Notes under the pieces: model-generated
Database searches by the model: none
Told to the model about the DNA's origin: nothing
Seen by the model: the letters and a program-made list of their open reading frames with translations, nothing else
Position numbers and translations under genes: made by a program
Part shown: piece by piece, positions 30,142 through 40,216 of the stretch
Layout: each line of letters begins with the position of its first letter
How positions within the stretch are numbered: position 1 is the first letter of the stretch
Assembly (NCBI RefSeq): GCF_014860165.1
Contig: NZ_JACZKG010000017.1
Location: 28,159-92,158 of the forward strand
DNA length: 64,000 nucleotides
Source: Devosia sp.
Lineage (GTDB): Bacteria > Pseudomonadota > Alphaproteobacteria > Rhizobiales > Devosiaceae
Direction of reading: 5' to 3'

Positions 30142-30942
30142 ATGTTCTTCATAGTCTCCAAGGTCTTCTGGGTGCTGGTGCAGCCGGTCAGCCTGACGTT
30201 CCTGCTGTGCCTGTTCGGTTGGGTTCTGGTCGCTTTCGGTCGCAGGCGGCTCGGGCTCTTGGCGGGCGCACTGGCGCTCCTGATCCTTGGGGTGAGCGCC
30301 TTCACAACGGCAGGGGTCATGGCGATCCGGCCGCTTGAGGAGCGTTTCGCGCGACCGGCCACCATGCCCCGGGACGTGTCCACGATCATCATGCTGGGTG
30401 GGGCGACATCCGGCCGTGTCAGCACCAGGCGGCAGGTCGCCGAGTTAACCGAGGCGGGCGATCGGCTGACCGAGACGCTGCGTCTGGCGCAGCTTTACCC
30501 ACAGGCACGTATCGTGCTGAGCGGCGGTTCTGGCCTGATGGTCGACGATGGCGAGTCCGAGGCCTTGACGGCACGGCGGTTCTTCATCGGTCTGGGGGTC
30601 GAGCCCTCGCGGCTGGTGCTGGAGGGGGAGTCGCGCAACACCGACGAGAATGCCGAAAATACGCTAGCCATGCTGGGCGAGGTGACGGGCAATGTGATGC
30701 TGGTGACATCGGCATTCCACATGCCCCGGTCCGTCGGCATCTTCCGCACGTCCGGCCTTGAGGTTATCGCCTGGCCTACCGACTATCGGAGCACGGGCGC
30801 GGAATCCTTCGGCCTTGACGTGGTCAATCCGGCGGTGAACGTGGTGACGACCAGCGTGGCGATGAAGGAGTGGATCGGGCTGGCGGTCTACCACTGGACC
30901 GGGCGGATCGACGAGCTGCTGCCCGCTCAGCTCTCGAACTGA
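30142..30942 (+). CDS. YdcF/ElyC-family (DUF218) membrane protein
   Basis: A 266-aa protein with two N-terminal transmembrane helices and a DUF218 domain (about 85-245). Motifs are IIMLGGATSGRVS, ARIVLSGGSGLMVDDGESEA, ESRNTDENAENT and MLVTSAFHMPRSVGIF. ElyC/SanA-type proteins act in envelope polysaccharide or lipid-carrier metabolism, but the reaction is not known. The ATG at 30142 follows AAGGG. The 3' end overlaps the convergent kinase gene by 16 nt. Confidence 0.9.
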   Translation: MFFIVSKVFWVLVQPVSLTFLLCLFGWVLVAFGRRRLGLLAGALALLILGVSAFTTAGVMAIRPLEERFARPATMPRDVSTIIMLGGATSGRVSTRRQVAELTEAGDRLTETLRLAQLYPQARIVLSGGSGLMVDDGESEALTARRFFIGLGVEPSRLVLEGESRNTDENAENTLAMLGEVTGNVMLVTSAFHMPRSVGIFRTSGLEVIAWPTDYRSTGAESFGLDVVNPAVNVVTTSVAMKEWIGLAVYHWTGRIDELLPAQLSN

Positions 30943-31904
30943 TCAGCAGGCACGTTCAGCCGGTAGCGGACGCCATCGGCCTCGACGCGGAAATCGGCGG
31001 TACCACCGACCGAGAGCGGCACGATGCGCTCGAGGACCAGCGTGCCGAAGTGCGGCTCGTGCTGGACGGGGGCGACGTCAATGCCCGTCTCCTGCCATTC
31101 GATGACGAGGTGTGGGGGTTGATCGGGCGGGTGAACCACGCGCGCGTCGATCCAGACTTGCCCGGGCTGCCCATCGGCCAGCGCGCCATGGCGGATCGCG
31201 TTGGCGCCCAGTTCATGAATGGCGAGGCCGATATGCAGCGACGCATTGGGACCCAGCAGGGGATTTTGACCGGTGACACGAACGTGGGGAAGGATGGCGT
31301 GGCCGACCCGCGTGAGCTGCGAGGTTATCAGCGACTGCAGATAGGTACCGCGCCAATTGCTCTCGGTCACCAGATCCTGCGTGCTGGACAGCGCGTGGAG
31401 CCGGCCGCGGAACCGGTCCAGAAAGTCCTTGATGCTGCCGCTGTGGTGCGCGGTCTGCATGGCAACGGACTGCACGATGGCCAACAGGTTCTTGGAGCGA
31501 TGGCTGACCTCGCGCAACAGCGTTGCCACGGCAATTTCCCGCGCGCGCTCCTCGGTCCGGTCGGTGACGACTGTGGTGACACCCAGTTCGTCCGACACCA
31601 TCCTTGCCTCGAAATAGTGGCGGCGAAGACCTTCGCCAATTTCGAACTCGATGATTTGGTCGTCGGTGGTAGTGCGTGCCCGATCAAAGGCTTCCGCGAA
31701 GGCAAAGGCGGTTTCGGCAGGCAGGAAATCAGCCTCGGTGCCGCCGATCACCGCCTGCCCGGACCATGCCGCAGGCAGGTTCTCCGCCATGTCGAAACGG
31801 TGGTCCGGCCCCTGGTGCAAGATGCAAATTCCCTGCGCGCGCAAGCCTGCGGACAAGGCGCCCAACCTCATCTGCGTCTGCGGATCAAGCGGGGAGGGGG
31901 GCAT
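30927..31904 (-). CDS. HWE/HisKA_2-type sensor histidine kinase with PAS-like domain
   Basis: Soluble 325-aa kinase. A PAS-like sensor occupies residues 1-120, followed by the HWE/HisKA_2 phosphoacceptor (LLREVSHRSKNLLAIVQSVAMQTA) and an ATPase domain with HELGANAIRHGALAD. This kinase class feeds PhyR in the alphaproteobacterial general stress response, and phyR is next but one upstream. No EcfG promoter was found directly upstream; a terminator separates it from the DUF1328 gene. It may be co-regulated or simply a linked input. Confidence 0.88.
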   Translation of the reverse strand: MPPSPLDPQTQMRLGALSAGLRAQGICILHQGPDHRFDMAENLPAAWSGQAVIGGTEADFLPAETAFAFAEAFDRARTTTDDQIIEFEIGEGLRRHYFEARMVSDELGVTTVVTDRTEERAREIAVATLLREVSHRSKNLLAIVQSVAMQTAHHSGSIKDFLDRFRGRLHALSSTQDLVTESNWRGTYLQSLITSQLTRVGHAILPHVRVTGQNPLLGPNASLHIGLAIHELGANAIRHGALADGQPGQVWIDARVVHPPDQPPHLVIEWQETGIDVAPVQHEPHFGTLVLERIVPLSVGGTADFRVEADGVRYRLNVPADQFES

Positions 31905-32274: not shown

Positions 32275-33069
32275 TCAGGCCGCAGCACGCGAGCCTTCGT
32301 CAAAGAACAGCGCCTGGCTGATCAGCGCCTTCACCATGTCGGGATTGAACGGCTTGGTGACGAGGAAGGTCGGCTCTGGCCGTTCGCCGGTCAAAAGGCG
32401 TTCCGGGAAGGCGGTGATGAAGATCACCGGCACGGAATGGCTGTTGAGGATATCGTTGACCGCGTCGATACCCGAACTGCCATCGGCGAGCTGGATATCG
32501 GCCAGGATCATGCGCGGCTGGGTCTGGGCAAACAGGTTGACCGCTTCCTTATGCGTGCGCGCGACGCTCACCACCTTGTGGCCGAGGCTCTCGACGAGCT
32601 GCTCGATATCCATGGCGATCAAGGGCTCATCCTCGATGATCATGATTTCGGTGGCGACCTGGCGGGAAATTTCGATCGAGGCTTCCTCGAGCAGCGAGTT
32701 GAACTCGGCCTCGGAGACGGAGAGAATTTCGGCAGCCTGTCCATGGGTGAAGCCTTCCACGGCGACCAGCAGGAAAGCCTGTCGTGGACGTGGCGCCAGG
32801 TTGGCAAGGTTGGTGGCCGCGCGCTTCTCCCACGCAAAGGTGGAGGTGGGGTGGGGCACGTTCACCGCCGATGTCGAGAACAGCGCCGAAAACAGCTTGT
32901 AGAGCGCTATGCGATCGTTGGACGCCTCGGGGAACAGCGAGATATCGGCGATGAGAGCTTCAAGGGTCGCCGCAACATAGGCATCGCCTGAGGTTTGCGA
33001 CCCGGTTACAGCACGGGAAAACCGCCGCAGATACGGCAGGTGCGGAGCAATCCGCGTGGACAAAGTCAT
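32275..33069 (-). CDS. phyR: General stress response regulator PhyR
   Basis: Response regulator with the inverted PhyR architecture, 264 aa. An N-terminal sigma-factor-like domain (about 1-130, RAATNLANLAPRPRQAFLLVAVEGF) mimics EcfG. A C-terminal receiver (about 140-260) has IEDEPLIAMDIE, acceptor Asp in MILADIQLADG, and Lys in VTKPFN. When phosphorylated, PhyR binds NepR and frees EcfG. It is divergent from nepR-ecfG, the standard arrangement, and carries a perfect EcfG promoter, giving positive feedback. The ATG gives MTLSTRIAPHLPYLRRF, typical for the family. Confidence 0.97.
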   Translation of the reverse strand: MTLSTRIAPHLPYLRRFSRAVTGSQTSGDAYVAATLEALIADISLFPEASNDRIALYKLFSALFSTSAVNVPHPTSTFAWEKRAATNLANLAPRPRQAFLLVAVEGFTHGQAAEILSVSEAEFNSLLEEASIEISRQVATEIMIIEDEPLIAMDIEQLVESLGHKVVSVARTHKEAVNLFAQTQPRMILADIQLADGSSGIDAVNDILNSHSVPVIFITAFPERLLTGERPEPTFLVTKPFNPDMVKALISQALFFDEGSRAAA

Positions 33070-33120: not shown

Positions 33121-33146
33121 AACGTGACTTCCCCGAACAAAGTTCC
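33121..33146 (-). promoter_or_regulatory. EcfG-type promoter of phyR
   Basis: GGAAC (minus strand 33146-33142), 17-nt spacer, CGTT (33124-33121). The expected transcript start is about 40 nt upstream of the phyR ATG. Confidence 0.88.
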
Positions 33147-33230: not shown

Positions 33231-33452
33231 ATGATGAAGGAAAAACTGGTGACCCAGCAACGTATGCGGACGCAGGCGGGGCGGGCAGAAGATGGGCTGG
33301 GTCCCAATACGGACATCGGTGCACGGCTGCGCGCCCTCTATGGAGCAGTGCAGGAAGAGGGGGTTCCTGACCAACTGCTCGATCTGCTCGAACGGCTCGA
33401 TAGTGCCGAACAGGCGCAGCGGACTAAGAATGCTGCTCGTGACGGAGAATAG
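33231..33452 (+). CDS. nepR: Anti-sigma factor NepR
   Basis: Small anti-sigma factor, 73 aa, that sequesters EcfG until PhyR-P displaces it. The NepR core is recognisable as IGARLRALYGAVQEEGVPDQLLDLLERLD, with the two helices that clamp the sigma factor. It overlaps the start region of ecfG. The ATG at 33231 has a weak ribosome site, while the in-frame GTG at 33249 follows AAGGA and may be the true start (67 aa). Confidence 0.93.
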   Translation: MMKEKLVTQQRMRTQAGRAEDGLGPNTDIGARLRALYGAVQEEGVPDQLLDLLERLDSAEQAQRTKNAARDGE

Positions 33453-33456
33453 CGCG

Positions 33457-34011
33457 GTGGCCGCTGAACCGACTTCATTCAAGCGCGAAATGCTGGCAAC
33501 CTTGCCGAGCCTGCGCGCCTTTGCCGTGTCGCTGACAGGCAAGCACGACAAGGCGGATGATCTCGTGCAGGATACAGTGATGAAGGCCTGGGCAAAACAG
33601 TCCAGCTTCGAGATGGGCACCAATATCAAGGCCTGGCTCTTCACCATCCTGCGCAACGAGTTCTACAGCCAGATGCGCAAGCGCGGCCGCGAGGTGCAGG
33701 ACAGCGACGGTGCCTTTACCGAGCGCCTTTCGGTCCATCCGGCCCAGTATGGCTCGATGGACATGCAGGATTTCAAGAAGGCCCTGGCGCAGTTGCCGGA
33801 TGACCAGCGCGAAGCGGTGATCCTGATCGGCGCTTCCGGCTTTTCTTATGAGGAAGCCGCGGAGATCTGCGATTGCGCGGTTGGCACGATGAAGAGCCGG
33901 GTGAGCCGTGCGCGAACGCGGCTGCAGGACATCCTCAAGATAACAGGCGAAGCCGATTACGGCCCGGACGCGGTCTCGGCCCAGGTCACCACCAGCAATC
34001 ATTCGTTCTAG
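33457..34011 (+). CDS. ecfG: ECF sigma factor EcfG
   Basis: ECF15-type general stress sigma factor, 184 aa from the chosen GTG. Region 2 shows SLRAFAVSLTGKHDKADDLVQDTVMKAWA and region 4 shows LPDDQREAVILIGASGFSYEEAAEICDCAVGTMKSRVSRARTRL. It recognises GGAAC-N16/17-CGTT promoters, several of which lie in this region. GGAG sits before GTG 33457, which is 4 nt after the nepR stop; ATG 33430 inside nepR is the alternative. The last 4 nt overlap the convergent pseudo-receiver gene. Confidence 0.95.
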   Translation: MAAEPTSFKREMLATLPSLRAFAVSLTGKHDKADDLVQDTVMKAWAKQSSFEMGTNIKAWLFTILRNEFYSQMRKRGREVQDSDGAFTERLSVHPAQYGSMDMQDFKKALAQLPDDQREAVILIGASGFSYEEAAEICDCAVGTMKSRVSRARTRLQDILKITGEADYGPDAVSAQVTTSNHSF

Positions 34012-34376
34012 CGGCGAGCGGCCAGCGCCTGTCGAACGGCGCTGGCCATCGCATCCTCCGGTATCGGCTTGGGGAGGACAGTGAGGTCCGGAAAAGCACC
34101 GGGTCCATGACCCACGGTCACGTCGGCTGTGGTGAGGACAGTGGGTACGCTGGCCTTCCGGAGCTGGTCCACCAGTTGCAGTGCTGCGGCATCGCGACTG
34201 CGAATCTCGACGACGGCAATGCCGATCTCGGGCCAATAGGTCTGCAGGGTCTGCGCCTCCGCAGCCGTGCCGGCAAACAGTGTTTTGCCGACGCCGAGCG
34301 CTTCGAGCATGCGCTGGATATCGAGCGCGATCAGGAATTCTTCCTCGACCACGAGGGCCGTCTGGCCGTTGAGCAT
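34008..34376 (-). CDS. Degenerate single-domain receiver (Asp to Glu)
   Basis: A 122-aa stand-alone receiver fold. It has the N-terminal ALVVEEEFLIALDIQRML and the C-terminal VLPKPIPED lysine, but the phosphoacceptor strand reads GIAVVEIRSRDA, with Glu where Asp is expected. Glu at that position often mimics the phosphorylated state or abolishes signalling. It converges on ecfG with a 4-nt overlap. Likely part of the stress-response circuit, perhaps a constitutive partner or competitor of PhyR-class kinases. Confidence 0.85.
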   Translation of the reverse strand: MLNGQTALVVEEEFLIALDIQRMLEALGVGKTLFAGTAAEAQTLQTYWPEIGIAVVEIRSRDAAALQLVDQLRKASVPTVLTTADVTVGHGPGAFPDLTVLPKPIPEDAMASAVRQALAARR

Positions 34377-34449
34377 GTCTGGTTCCGTCCTCTGGAACTT
34401 TTCAGTGAGCCAGCGCGCGCGCAGCTGTCATTTAAGTTTGACATGTCCG

Positions 34450-34475
34450 GGAACGGCAGGCGGCTCCGTCGCGTT
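34450..34475 (+). promoter_or_regulatory. EcfG-type promoter of the Crp/Fnr-like gene
   Basis: GGAAC (34450-34454), 17-nt spacer, CGTT (34472-34475). Transcription would start near 34482, after the track's ATG at 34478. If this promoter is used, translation must begin downstream. Confidence 0.8.
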
Positions 34476-34477
34476 GG

Positions 34478-35266
34478 ATGCAGACATCCATCCAGCGTCA
34501 ATGGTGCCGTTTGAGTCTCGTTCTCCCCAGTTCCGGACGCAGGGTGCCCTGCGAGCAGTGTCCGCTCCGTGCCCTGCCCAGCTTTCGAGAATTCGAGGCG
34601 CAGGAGTTGAGTTTCGTTTCCTCGTTCAAGACCGGCGAACTGGTCGCGGAGGCGGGCACGACGCTGCTGTCGGAGGGGAGCCATAGCGCTCATCTTTATA
34701 CCGTGCTCTCAGGCTGGGCCTTCCGGTACAAGACGCTGCCGGACGGGCGCCGGCAGATCCTCAACTATATGTTGCCCGGGGACCTTGTGGGCCTGCAGGG
34801 ATCGGTCATCGGCGAGATGCAGCATTCGGTGGAGGCCCTGTCGCCCCTCGTGCTATGCGTGTTTCAACGCAATCGGCTCAGTGAATTATTCCGCAATCAT
34901 CCGGGGCTCGGCTTCGACATCACCTGGCTTGCCGCGCAGGAAGAACGCATGCTCGACGATCACCTGCTGAGCCTGGGCCGGCGTACCGCCATCGAACGGG
35001 CGGCGTACCTGATCGCGTTCCTCTATCAAAGGGCTGCCTCGGTTGGCTTGGCCGGATCGCGCAGCCTTTATGTGCCTATCACCCAGATGCATGTTGCCGA
35101 TACGCTGGGGCTTTCCATCGTTCACACCAACAAGACACTGCGCAAGCTGGCCGACCAGGCGCTGATCCGCTGGCTCGACCGGTCCTGCGAAATTCTCGAC
35201 GTGCCCGGGTTGATGGCGGTGGCCGGCTGGGACGGGCTGCCCGCGCGCCGACGGCCCCTCATATGA
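34478..35266 (+). CDS. Crp/Fnr family transcriptional regulator
   Basis: FNR/FixK-like regulator, up to 262 aa. An N-terminal PCEQCPLRALPSF motif leads into a cyclic-nucleotide-type sensor domain (LYTVLSGWAFRYKTLPDGRRQILNYMLPGDLVGLQ), then a C-terminal winged helix with LPITQMHVADTLGLSIVHTNKTLRKL-like sequence (read here as VPITQMH...). It lacks the full FNR four-Cys cluster, having only the CxxC pair. The EcfG promoter overlaps the longest start, so the real one is probably TTG 34511 or GTG 34544, close to the family N-terminus. It suggests a stress-activated second-tier regulator. Confidence 0.9.
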   Translation: MQTSIQRQWCRLSLVLPSSGRRVPCEQCPLRALPSFREFEAQELSFVSSFKTGELVAEAGTTLLSEGSHSAHLYTVLSGWAFRYKTLPDGRRQILNYMLPGDLVGLQGSVIGEMQHSVEALSPLVLCVFQRNRLSELFRNHPGLGFDITWLAAQEERMLDDHLLSLGRRTAIERAAYLIAFLYQRAASVGLAGSRSLYVPITQMHVADTLGLSIVHTNKTLRKLADQALIRWLDRSCEILDVPGLMAVAGWDGLPARRRPLI

Positions 35267-35351: not shown

Positions 35352-36776
35352 ATGAATATGGTGGGCATTGCGAGCGGATTGGGCAACCAGGAGCAGGGAA
35401 CGGTAGTGAAGCGTCACCTTGGCCAGCGACTGGTCGTTTTTGTGTCGCTGGCACTGGTGATGCTGGCGGCCGTGGCCGCCCTGGTGCTGGTGCGGGGCAT
35501 CGACCGGCAGATCAGCGACGTGATTCACACGCATGAGGTGCGCAACCATGCGCGGGAGCTCACTATCGCGCTCAGCGAGGCCGAGAGTGCACAGCGGGGC
35601 TACCTGCTGACGCAGGATCAGAGCTATCTCGAACCCTATCAGGGCGCCGCGGCGGCGATCGAGATGCGGCTGCTGTCGCTGACCGCTCTCACCAGCGGCG
35701 ACGCCGAACAGGCGGCGCGGGTGCGCAGCATTTCCAGCGAGATTGTCACCAAGACGGCTGAAATGGCTCGGACGGTCGCCTTGGTGCAGGAGCAGCGCGG
35801 CGCCGAGGCTCGGGTCCTCATCGAGACGGGGATGGGCGAGCGGCTGATGGACAATCTGCGGCTGGCACTGGAGCAGTTCATTGGTGAAGAGAACCAGAAG
35901 CTGTTCGACCGCAACCGGGAGATCGACCAGTCGCGACGCCTGCTGGTTGGCGCCATCATCACCGCATTGGCCGGCGCGGTGCTGCTGGCCTATATGCTGA
36001 TTTCCCGGACGCAGCGGCAAGTCAGCGCCCTGGCGGAGAGCAAGGATCGCCTGTTGACCGAAAACGAGGTCCTCGAAGCCCATGTGCTGGATCGGACCCA
36101 TGCCCTGCAGGAGGCGCGCGAGCATGCCGAGCGGGAGCGGCAGCGGGTGGAGGCGCTGTTGCAGGACGCCAATCACCGCATCGGCAATTCGCTGGCAACC
36201 GTATCGTCACTGCTCGGCCTGCAACTGCTGCGCAGCAAATCGGACGAGGTGCGCGCGGCGCTGGAAGCGGCACGGTCGCGCGTGCATGCCATCGCCTCGG
36301 CACATCGCCGGTTGCGCCTGGGCGGCGATTTCGAAACCGCCAGCGCCGACGAGTTCCTCGACGCCGTGCTGGAAGATATCGCGGCCACGGCCGGCGACTC
36401 GAAAAACATCCGGCTAGCGGGGGATTTCGACCCCATCGTCGTTGGTGCACGCGATGCAACGACGCTGGGAATTCTCGTGGGAGAACTGGTGACCAATGCG
36501 GTCAAGCATGCCTTTCCGGGCGGACGTAACGGCACGATCACCGTGACGCTCAAGCGCGACGAGGCCGGCGTGCCCACGCTGCGGGTGCTGGACGATGGCG
36601 TGGGCATATCAGGCGAACACCTGCCCGGCGAGGGCGGGCTGGGATCGGTCATCGTCAGGCAATTGGCAACCCAGTTTGGTGGCGAACCGCATTATGAACG
36701 GCGGTCGGGCGGCGGCCTGAGCGTCAGCGTGTCGCTGCCCGGCATTGAGGGCGCACGCTCGCCCGAAGGGCACTGA
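35352..36776 (+). CDS. CHASE3-containing HWE/HisKA_2-type histidine kinase
   Basis: Membrane kinase of 474 aa. The first TM helix (about 25-48) and second (about 197-217) bracket a periplasmic CHASE3 domain (ESAQRGYLLTQDQSYLEPY). A coiled-coil linker leads to the HisKA_2 box LLQDANHRIGNSLATVSSLLGLQ and an ATPase domain with GELVTNAVKHAF and DDGVGI. The layout is that of PhyK-like stress sensors. It is followed 15 nt later by the lipid kinase gene and the GAF kinase gene on the same strand. No EcfG promoter was seen directly upstream. Confidence 0.9.
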   Translation: MNMVGIASGLGNQEQGTVVKRHLGQRLVVFVSLALVMLAAVAALVLVRGIDRQISDVIHTHEVRNHARELTIALSEAESAQRGYLLTQDQSYLEPYQGAAAAIEMRLLSLTALTSGDAEQAARVRSISSEIVTKTAEMARTVALVQEQRGAEARVLIETGMGERLMDNLRLALEQFIGEENQKLFDRNREIDQSRRLLVGAIITALAGAVLLAYMLISRTQRQVSALAESKDRLLTENEVLEAHVLDRTHALQEAREHAERERQRVEALLQDANHRIGNSLATVSSLLGLQLLRSKSDEVRAALEAARSRVHAIASAHRRLRLGGDFETASADEFLDAVLEDIAATAGDSKNIRLAGDFDPIVVGARDATTLGILVGELVTNAVKHAFPGGRNGTITVTLKRDEAGVPTLRVLDDGVGISGEHLPGEGGLGSVIVRQLATQFGGEPHYERRSGGGLSVSVSLPGIEGARSPEGH

Positions 36777-36791
36777 CCAGGAGACCGCTTC

Positions 36792-37754
36792 TTGCGCATT
36801 ATTGCCGTTCTCAACCGCGATGGCGGGACGCTGCGGACCATGGATCTGGAGGCGTTCTGTGCCACTGCCATAGCGATCTTTGCCCGGCACGGACATGAAC
36901 TCGACTGCCGGATCGTCCCGGGTCACGAGGTGAATGCAGCGATCCGCAAGGCAGCGACCACCAGCGGGGTCGATGCCGTCCTGGCAGGGGGCGGCGATGG
37001 CACCATTTCGACCGCTGCGGGGATTGCCTACGAAACCGGCATACCGCTGGCTGTGCTGCCGGTGGGGACGATGAACCTGTTTGCGCGGGCCCTCAAGGTG
37101 CCGCTGGTGCTCGACGAAGCCCTCGAGGCCATCGCGGCCGGCGAGATCGGCGCGGTGGACATTGCGACGGCCAACGGACGTCCCTTCGTGCATCAGTTCG
37201 GCGTGGGCGTCCATGCTCGCCTGGTACGCATTCGTGAGCATATGACCTATGGCAGTCGTGTCGGCAAGATGCTGGCAAGCCTGAGGGCAATTGGCGCCGC
37301 GGCGATCAATCCGCCACAGTTCGACGCCGAATTCCACACTGGCACGGGTATTGAGACCAGGCGGGTGTCGGGGATTGCGGTGTCCAACAATCCGCTCGGC
37401 GAAGGGCAGATCCATGCCGAACGGCTCGATGGGGGTATGCTGGGGGTCTATGTCGCAGCGTCGCTCTCGACATCGGCCCTGCTGAAGCTGGTGGCCGATG
37501 TGTTCATGGGGACCTGGCGGGCCAGTCCGGCCGTTACCGAGAAGGAGGTCACCGAGGTGACCCTGCGCTTTCCCAGGCGCAAACGTGGAGCGCATGCCGT
37601 GATCGACGGCGAACTGATCAAGCTGGATCGCTCGGTGACACTCAAGATCCATCCGGGGGCGCTCAAGGTGCTGAGGCCGAAGCCTGCACTTCTGCCGCAG
37701 GGGCACATAGAAAATCTGGAACCAACCCGTTCCCGCGGCGTTGCGAGTGATTAG
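36792..37754 (+). CDS. Diacylglycerol kinase family (DagK/YegS-like) lipid kinase
   Basis: A 320-aa lipid kinase. The DAGK catalytic signature AGGGDGTISTAAGIAYETGIPLAVLPVGTMNLFARAL (residues about 60-100) contains the nucleotide-binding GGGDGT and the conserved GTxN. The C-terminal half carries the acidic/lysine residues of the family (HAVIDGELIKLD). The substrate is a diacylglycerol, ceramide or phosphatidylglycerol-like lipid. The TTG at 36792 follows CAGGAG and gives RIIAVLNRDGG. Lying between two stress-kinase genes, it could modify membrane lipids under stress. Confidence 0.9.
   Translation: MRIIAVLNRDGGTLRTMDLEAFCATAIAIFARHGHELDCRIVPGHEVNAAIRKAATTSGVDAVLAGGGDGTISTAAGIAYETGIPLAVLPVGTMNLFARALKVPLVLDEALEAIAAGEIGAVDIATANGRPFVHQFGVGVHARLVRIREHMTYGSRVGKMLASLRAIGAAAINPPQFDAEFHTGTGIETRRVSGIAVSNNPLGEGQIHAERLDGGMLGVYVAASLSTSALLKLVADVFMGTWRASPAVTEKEVTEVTLRFPRRKRGAHAVIDGELIKLDRSVTLKIHPGALKVLRPKPALLPQGHIENLEPTRSRGVASD
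37718..37742 (+). promoter_or_regulatory. EcfG-type promoter of the GAF-PAS kinase gene
   Basis: GGAAC (37718-37722), 16-nt spacer, CGTT (37739-37742). It is embedded in the 3' end of the lipid kinase gene. The predicted start near 37750 excludes the track's TTG at 37741 and supports GTG 37807. Confidence 0.8.
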
Positions 37755-37806
37755 CCGGGGAGCTTTGGCTGTTGCAGGTTATATTGGGTTAGCGTCAGGA
37801 CGGAAC

Positions 37807-39330
37807 GTGAAAGACAAAGGGGCCCACCTTCCGGACGAGGTTCGGCGGGTCGTGGATGATCCAGTGCGCTTGCACGCGCTGGCGGCGCTGGACGTGCTCG
37901 ATAGCAGTCCCGACGCCGATTTCGAGCGGTTGAGCCGGACCGCTGCCTTTACATTCAAGGCCGACATTGCGCTGGTGACGCTCATCGACAAGGAGCGGCA
38001 GTGGTTTCGTGCGTGCTTCGGCATCGACAATATGACCGAGGCGCTGACCGAAACCTCGTTTTGCGCGCATGCCATCGCCCTGCCGCATGATGAGGACACG
38101 CTGGTGGTGCTCGACGCCACCAGGGACGACCGTTTCAAGCACAATCCGCTGGTGACCGGATGGCCGGGGATTCGCTTCTATGCCGGCGCGGCGATTGTCG
38201 TGGGCGGCCAGAAGGTGGGCTCGCTCTGTGTCATCGGCACGCAGCCGCGGTCGGCGCTGGAACCGGGGCTGGTCGAGCAGCTGGTCAACCTGGCCGGCCT
38301 GACATCGACCCTGTTCTCCCTCAAGGACGAAGCGCGGGTGCGGGCGCGCACTGCGGCCGCCCTGGTCAGGGAGGAATGGCGCCACGCGCTGACCCTGGAG
38401 GCCGGCAAGGTCGGGAGCTGGGTCTGGGACGTGCGGACGGGCGAAGTCGCCTGCAATGACATGTTCCGGCGGATGTATGGACTGGCCGAGGGCGAGACCA
38501 TACGCGCCCAGGATGTGCTTGATGCAACCCACCCCCTGGACCGGCAGATGGTCGAATCGGGCATCGAGGCCAGCTTCCGCGGTGGAATGGACTATAGCGC
38601 CGAAGCGCGCATCGCGGCGACGGGCCGCTGGCTCACCATGCGGGGCCGGGTCTATCAGCGCGATGCCGAGGGCAAGCCGCTGGTGATGATGGGCGTCAGC
38701 ATCGACATTACCGAGAGCAAGCAGAGCGCCGATCACACGCGTCTGCTGCTGCGCGAGCTCAATCATCGGGTGAAGAATACGCTGGCCATGATCCAGTCGG
38801 TGGCGCGGCAGACCATTCGCCAGAACCCCGATCCCAAGGACTTCATCGAGGCCTTTTCGGGTCGCCTCCGCACGATTTCGGATGCGCATGTGCTGCTGGC
38901 AGATCGCGACTGGTCCGGGGTGCAACTGTATGAAGTGATCGCTTCCCAGCTTGGACCCAGCTTCCGCGCCGACCCCGACCGGGCTGAGGTGCGCGGGGAG
39001 GATGTGACGCTGCCGGCCGATCACGCCCTGGGGCTGGGGCTGATCCTGCATGAGTTGACGACCAATGCGCACCACCATGGCGCCTGGTCGAGCGAAGCGG
39101 GCACGGTCAGCATAGACTGGGAAATCAAGCGGAGGCCGACGCGCGGACTGTCACTGACCTGGCGGGAAAGCGGCGGGCCGAAAGTATCGAGGCCCGCCGA
39201 ATTTGGCCTGGGCGCGCGGCTGATCGAGCGGAGCCTGGCAAAGGTGCTGGACAGCGAGGTGGCGCTCAACTTCGAGCCCGACGGGGTGGTCGCCCATGTC
39301 TGGATGCCGCTGCCGGCAGAGGACGCCTAG
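37807..39330 (+). CDS. GAF-PAS HWE-type sensor histidine kinase
   Basis: Soluble 507-aa kinase. A GAF domain spans residues 20-170 (FKADIALVTLIDKERQWFRACFG, TSFCAHAI), then a PAS domain (about 190-320), the HWE box LLLRELNHRVKNTLAMIQSVARQT and an ATPase domain with LILHELTTNAHHHGAWS. The GTG at 37807 with AGGA upstream is preferred over TTG 37741, which overlaps the EcfG -10 box. The EcfG promoter makes it part of the stress regulon, so it may tune PhyR phosphorylation by feedback. Confidence 0.91.
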   Translation: MKDKGAHLPDEVRRVVDDPVRLHALAALDVLDSSPDADFERLSRTAAFTFKADIALVTLIDKERQWFRACFGIDNMTEALTETSFCAHAIALPHDEDTLVVLDATRDDRFKHNPLVTGWPGIRFYAGAAIVVGGQKVGSLCVIGTQPRSALEPGLVEQLVNLAGLTSTLFSLKDEARVRARTAAALVREEWRHALTLEAGKVGSWVWDVRTGEVACNDMFRRMYGLAEGETIRAQDVLDATHPLDRQMVESGIEASFRGGMDYSAEARIAATGRWLTMRGRVYQRDAEGKPLVMMGVSIDITESKQSADHTRLLLRELNHRVKNTLAMIQSVARQTIRQNPDPKDFIEAFSGRLRTISDAHVLLADRDWSGVQLYEVIASQLGPSFRADPDRAEVRGEDVTLPADHALGLGLILHELTTNAHHHGAWSSEAGTVSIDWEIKRRPTRGLSLTWRESGGPKVSRPAEFGLGARLIERSLAKVLDSEVALNFEPDGVVAHVWMPLPAEDA

Positions 39331-40190: not shown

Positions 40191-40216
40191 AACGTACGGA
40201 AAAGTCTGAGGTTCCC
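40191..40216 (-). promoter_or_regulatory. EcfG-type promoter of DUF883-holin operon
   Basis: On the minus strand GGAAC (40216-40212) and CGTT (40194-40191) are 17 nt apart, just upstream of the DUF883 gene. Confidence 0.85.

Follow-up and report, generated by a model that had tools for sequence, protein, structure and literature searches.

The gene that lies between ecfG and a Crp/Fnr-type regulator gene in the general stress response (GSR) locus of Devosia sp. is, as judged by comparative sequence analysis, a pseudo-receiver derived from a response regulator of that same locus. This identification follows from a glutamate conserved at the acceptor position, the pattern of residues in the phosphorylation pocket, selection on the protein and the presence of Asp-bearing genes at the syntenic position elsewhere. 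The locus is part of the 64,000-nucleotide stretch of DNA analyzed here (the window), and contains the following features:

30927..31904, minus strand: HWE histidine kinase, candidate target of the receiver (Pfam HWE_HK 3.9e-22)
32275..33069, minus strand: phyR, anti-anti-sigma response regulator with a canonical Asp receiver (Pfam PhyR domains; NCBIfam PhyR above cut-off)
33121-33146, minus strand: EcfG-type promoter of phyR (motif match upstream of phyR)
33231..33452, plus strand: nepR, anti-sigma factor (Pfam NepR 3.7e-14)
33436..34011, plus strand: ecfG, GSR sigma factor, convergent with the receiver gene (Pfam Sigma70_r2 and r4)
34008..34376, minus strand: single-domain pseudo-receiver, 122 aa, with Glu57 at the acceptor position (ORF, synteny, AlphaFold and dN/dS)
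34206..34208, minus strand: codon of Glu57, at the canonical phosphoacceptor Asp position (residue 57 of the ORF starting at 34376)
35352..36776, plus strand: CHASE3-HisKA_2/HWE histidine kinase, PhyK-like, candidate target of the receiver (Pfam CHASE3, HisKA_2 and HATPase)
37741..39330, plus strand: GAF-PAS-HWE histidine kinase, candidate target of the receiver (Pfam HWE_HK 6.8e-26)

The receiver protein and its acceptor residue

The receiver ORF starts with ATG, and residues 54-63 read AVVEIRSRDA: Glu57 ends strand beta-3 in place of the canonical Asp, and the KP motif is retained as K103-P104. These features agree with the original prediction, as does the 4-nt overlap with ecfG. The sigma factor gene ends at 34011 and the receiver gene at 34008, and the CTAG that they share holds both stop codons. 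That a pseudo-receiver adjoins the PhyR, NepR and EcfG genes is likewise borne out by the Pfam-identified neighbors, the receiver fold and Glu57.

AlphaFold modeled the protein with a mean pLDDT of 91.3 as a receiver-type alternation of strands and helices in which helix alpha-4 is weak or missing. Both the ORF and the model contain a single receiver domain, with no output domain in the 122 residues. When we searched with this model in Foldseek, the top matches were PhyR REC domains. A family profile compared with structure chains also matched REC chains, with 2lpm (which we take to be Sma0114) first, followed by PhyR and SdrG. Within its own genome, the closest paralogue of the receiver is PhyR. 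At E<=0.1 the Pfam Response_reg profile (PF00072) had no match to the receiver, and among 71 homologues it matched 34 at E<=0.01. Standard annotation can therefore overlook the Devosia receiver; surveys of aspartate-less receivers use this profile as a criterion, which does not concern what such proteins do. NCBIfam returned sub-threshold matches alone, to response regulators and PhyR. A chance ORF at 34008-34376 was ruled out by fold, synteny and dN/dS.

To compare the receiver across Devosiaceae, we fetched the loci of the 113 genomes, out of 136 in the family, in which PhyR was found. The slot between ecfG and the Crp/Fnr-type gene yielded 75 syntenic homologues in the family, with Glu at the acceptor position in 62, Asp in 9, Asn in 2 (L082 and L115) and Gln in 2 (L086 and L094). 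Glu is conserved family-wide, then, rather than Asp being kept by most homologues, and a strain-level Asp-to-Glu change was rejected. In an alignment of 71 sequences, the acceptor column (E60 D7 N2 Q2; entropy 0.82 bit) is among the most conserved positions.

The rest of the pocket is retained in part. Glu11, Leu24, Lys103 and Pro104 are invariant in the 71 receivers, and position 83 is Ser or Thr in every one. The second acidic position, which binds the metal ion directly in true receivers, corresponds to position 12 and is acidic in just 34 of 71. An aromatic residue at K-3, which would support Y-T coupling, is mostly absent. Glu57 acting as a structural filler of the pocket, in a salt bridge with Lys103, would fit. 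On the surface, helix alpha-1 has a mean entropy of 1.5 bit, compared with 2.3-2.7 for alpha-2, alpha-3 and alpha-5; it reads LIALDIQRMLEALG in the receiver, and alpha-1 of the window PhyR reads LIAMDIEQLVESLG.

A tree of 89 receivers required at least 11 changes at the acceptor, though it was built from few columns and leaves many forks open. We infer that Glu is ancestral in Devosiaceae and that several lineages reverted to Asp; in these Asp-bearing lineages, phosphorylation of the receiver may matter. One Devosiaceae receiver on a long branch (L099) is possibly transitional: its acceptor is Glu, the remainder of its pocket is canonical, and it has a FATGUY-like PFIFVTGY motif.

Beyond Devosiaceae, receivers with Asp occupy this slot in further families of the order (in f23, f12 and some f40). 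Those of f23 read VLEDEFLIAMD, VDLMLGG, PFVFASGY and KPY, near the FATGUY signature PFXFATG[G/Y]. Searched against the genome of the window, the f23 receiver has the window receiver as its best match, ahead of PhyR. Synteny and this best match identify the window receiver and the Asp-bearing, FATGUY-like f23 receivers as orthologues. We rejected a second receiver gene of this kind in the genome, since the best matches of the f23 orthologue were the window receiver and then PhyR, and no other single-domain PFXFATG[G/Y] protein was found in the genome at the sensitivity used. Outside Devosiaceae, the syntenic receivers of L158 and L153 have Gly with a K-to-R change in the KP motif (f10 genome) and Asn (f40 genome); from their sequences, these are independent losses of the acceptor.

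Among close pairs, dN/dS of the receiver was 0.04-0.30, about 0.2, and omega was well below 1 in all 18 pairs. These values indicate that the receiver is selected as a protein, although it evolves much faster than ecfG (<0.065) and the Crp/Fnr-type gene (0.03-0.13).

The divergent FNR-like gene and the intergenic element

Upstream of the receiver gene, the window contains three further features:

34426..34443, no strand assigned: conserved 18-bp element TGTCATTTAAGTTTGACA, candidate operator of the FNR-like regulator (conservation across 86 loci)
34450..34475, plus strand: EcfG-type promoter GGAAC-N17-CGTT facing the FNR-like gene (motif match)
34511..35266, plus strand: FNR-like Crp/Fnr regulator, 251 aa, TTG start, divergent from the receiver gene (Pfam cNMP_binding and HTH_Crp_2)

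The regulator appears FNR-like, and an FNR-type signal is putative: it matches NCBIfam FnrL at 6e-28, below cut-off, and Cys14, Cys17 and Cys116 are invariant in 89 of 89 sequences, with Cys226 present in 85 of them. FNR holds its Fe-S cluster by four Cys ligands; by inspection, the regulator has no counterpart of Cys29 of E. coli FNR. Its recognition helix is unusual, reading LSIVHTNKTLRKL.

The receiver and Crp/Fnr genes occur together in 72 Devosiaceae loci and are both missing from 27; three loci have the receiver only (L083, L064 and L052) and three the Crp/Fnr gene only (L077, L084 and L085). The 76 genomes that have the FNR-like gene have it once, and with a single exception it lies at the GSR locus. 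We looked for a relocated copy where the locus lacks the gene and rejected this explanation: the single copy is always at the locus, bar one distant 44% match. Because the gene is single-copy and sits at the locus whenever present, its absence represents loss rather than relocation. On the tree, presence of the receiver changes about 14 times and presence of the Crp/Fnr gene 16 times. In the starred independent pairs (n=7) the two traits were never opposite, and the sign test was not significant (median p 0.125). The co-occurrence owes partly to shared ancestry; from the gene content of these loci, the receiver appears usually to be inherited or lost together with its divergent FNR-like gene.

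Between the two genes lies the element TGTCATTTAANNNNGACA, which is present with at most one mismatch in 81 of 86 loci and at most three in all 86, across several families; a few of these 86 loci are repeats of one genome. Among 4300 shuffles, two mismatches were reached once. The genome contains one exact copy, and its next best match has two mismatches. The element follows the crp gene, not the receiver: in the loci with the Crp/Fnr gene only, it has one mismatch (L084 and L085) or three (L077), and in the receiver-only loci it is decayed, with four mismatches (L083 and L064) or three (L052). For this reason, three loci against three, we read the element as the probable operator of the FNR-like regulator. 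Several homologues have an upstream in-frame 'MSxLND' extension that corresponds to the same 18 bp. We rejected it as coding: its DNA forms a near-palindrome that is conserved at the level of single bases, and in the window the extension is out of frame.

The EcfG-type promoter GGAA[C/T]-N15-18-CGTT faces the Crp/Fnr gene in 49 of the 86 loci and the receiver in none of the 86. Given the position of the match in the window, the FNR-like gene probably starts at TTG 34511, not at the upstream ATG 34478. Our search for a conserved promoter toward the receiver gave a weak CATnAG signal alone, about 29 nt from the center of the element, which is a hint. Over the whole window there are 7 EcfG-type promoter matches where 1.4 are expected, others being at 37718-37742 and 40191-40215; these matches can be read as a local EcfG regulon around the GSR locus. 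In one Devosia genome (G011, locus L111), phyR is seemingly split into two frames, perhaps by a frameshift or through faulty assembly, and both the receiver and the FNR-like gene are absent.

How the receiver may work

The window encodes three kinases of HWE or HisKA_2 type, and the whole genome has seven HWE_HK matches. The CHASE3 kinase matches NCBIfam PhyK at 7.7e-23, below cut-off. In the model we favor, to which we assign a probability of roughly 0.4, the receiver would tune HWE/HisKA2 kinases in a FixT-like, phosphorylation-independent manner set by its abundance. EcfG would induce the FNR-like gene, whose product would act at the 18-bp element both on its own gene and on the receiver gene and would set the level of the receiver. 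Carrying no phosphate, the receiver would dock on the HWE/HisKA2 kinases of the GSR through its PhyR-like alpha-1, docking being an assumption of the model; the neighboring CHASE3 kinase would be the simplest target. It would then dampen kinase output toward PhyR, as FixT does with FixL, although this inhibitory direction is assumed and uncertain. The EcfG-driven FNR-like gene would close a feedback loop, and an FNR-type signal (oxygen, NO or redox) would gate the receiver.

Close to this model is the earlier suggestion of a decoy or modulator of HWE kinases, which is plausible because alpha-1, a highly conserved surface element, resembles that of PhyR. PhyR binds NepR through its sigma-like domain. 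The receiver has no such domain fused to it, making NepR binding unlikely, and we rejected this role.

Several alternatives have to be weighed against kinase tuning. If Glu57 were a true phosphomimic, the receiver would be locked 'on', like a permanent DivK~P or SdrG~P, and could be an allosteric activator of a GSR kinase, a phosphotransferase or another partner. Where receivers lack the aspartate, Glu replaces it most often and can act as a mimic of phospho-Asp (PMC4395418; PMC12632262), and the invariance of Lys103, Ser/Thr83 and Glu11 is compatible with such a state. However, SdrG is a homologous GSR receiver, and the same D-to-E change leaves it inactive: SdrG D56E cannot replace SdrG (PMC5898713). 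Lineages with Gln or Asn at the acceptor persist, the second metal ligand is gone in half of the family, and most members have no aromatic residue at K-3. The failure of SdrG D56E to complement and the Gln and Asn lineages weaken the constitutive phosphomimetic effector of the original prediction, and we consider it unlikely. Alternatively, the partner could be the FNR-like regulator itself, bound and modulated in place of the kinases. The two genes diverge from one element and are inherited and lost jointly, but each also occurs without the other in three loci, and nothing beyond the element and co-regulation is needed to account for the link. The conservation of alpha-1 points instead to kinase docking, and we give the regulator a low probability as partner.

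The receiver gene could also be a decaying relic, no longer capable of phosphotransfer and on its way to being lost. Compared with ecfG and crp its dN/dS is several-fold greater, its presence changes repeatedly on the tree, and D, E, N, Q and G all occur at the acceptor. Decay nevertheless seems improbable in view of an omega well below 1 in every pair, four invariant columns, the retention of Glu over large synonymous distance and the finding that, among the matches listed, the best per Devosia genome are open frames. The same codon-level purifying selection on the protein counts against regulation of ecfG by antisense RNA or by collision of convergent overlapping transcripts, in which the protein would be of little importance. 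Receiver and ecfG are convergent in 92 of 92 loci, but the gap between them ranges from -55 to +117 nt: orientation alone is conserved, and the length of the overlap is not. Because of this variation the antisense control proposed earlier fails; we rejected it as the main role of the receiver and regard it as very improbable.

Relation to known receivers

Aspartate-less receivers keep the first acidic residue and the Lys, lose the second acidic residue and most commonly have Glu as the replacement (PMC4395418); a 2025 review calls the switching and function of bacterial pseudo-receivers unknown (PMC12632262). The window protein resembles them in its REC fold, its acceptor Glu and its retained first acidic residue and Lys, and the second acidic residue is often lost in Devosiaceae receivers. 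Unlike in these groups, however, the replacement is fixed in most of one family, at one syntenic GSR locus and in a single-domain protein with orthologues elsewhere in the order that bear Asp.

The FATGUY single-domain regulators include SdrG, MrrA, Mext_0407 and Sma0114, three of which are known to function in the GSR of alphaproteobacteria; SdrG and MrrA serve it as phosphorylation hubs and partner promiscuously with HWE/HisKA2 kinases (PMC5964349, PMC5898713). The window receiver is likewise single-domain and related in sequence, and its f23 orthologues have both Asp and PFVFASGY. In contrast, the window receiver itself lacks a phosphorylatable Asp and reads VPTVLTTAD in place of PFXFATG[G/Y]. 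With these two defining features missing, we class it as a pseudo-receiver of FATGUY-type descent and leave it outside the FATGUY group.

FixT consists of one receiver domain; it inhibits the autophosphorylation of FixL and does so without acting as a competing phospho-receiver (PMC7078487). The window protein is also a single-domain receiver and probably not a phospho-receiver, with a Crp/Fnr-type gene nearby, as FixK is in the FixT circuit. FixT is a feedback inhibitor of its kinase; the same action is a candidate for the window receiver. The likeness is one of architecture: FixT belongs to the FixLJ oxygen system, FixL is an unrelated kinase, and the window protein lacks a cysteine motif. 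The receiver domain of PhyR provides both the closest solved structures and the closest paralogue in the genome, but the window receiver has neither the sigma-like NepR-binding domain nor the Asp of PhyR, and the true phyR is the gene at 32275-33069.

In the open literature, we found nothing on the GSR of Devosia and no description of a receiver paired with an FNR-like gene. Glu is a familiar replacement among aspartate-less receivers. To judge from the open literature, the novelty lies in the family-wide fixation of Glu at a GSR locus, in the Asp orthologues in the same place, and in the FNR-like partner gene and its private element. The original prediction mentions neither this partner gene nor the element.

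Together, these loci form a natural series: Asp in other families, Glu in most Devosiaceae, then Asn, Gln, Asp again and outright losses, all at one locus within the best-studied stress circuit of the alphaproteobacteria. The role left to an unphosphorylatable receiver is therefore directly testable by orthologue swaps. If true, the FNR-like link would also connect redox sensing with the GSR, in which the Devosia receiver looks like a built-in, phosphate-independent brake or tuner.
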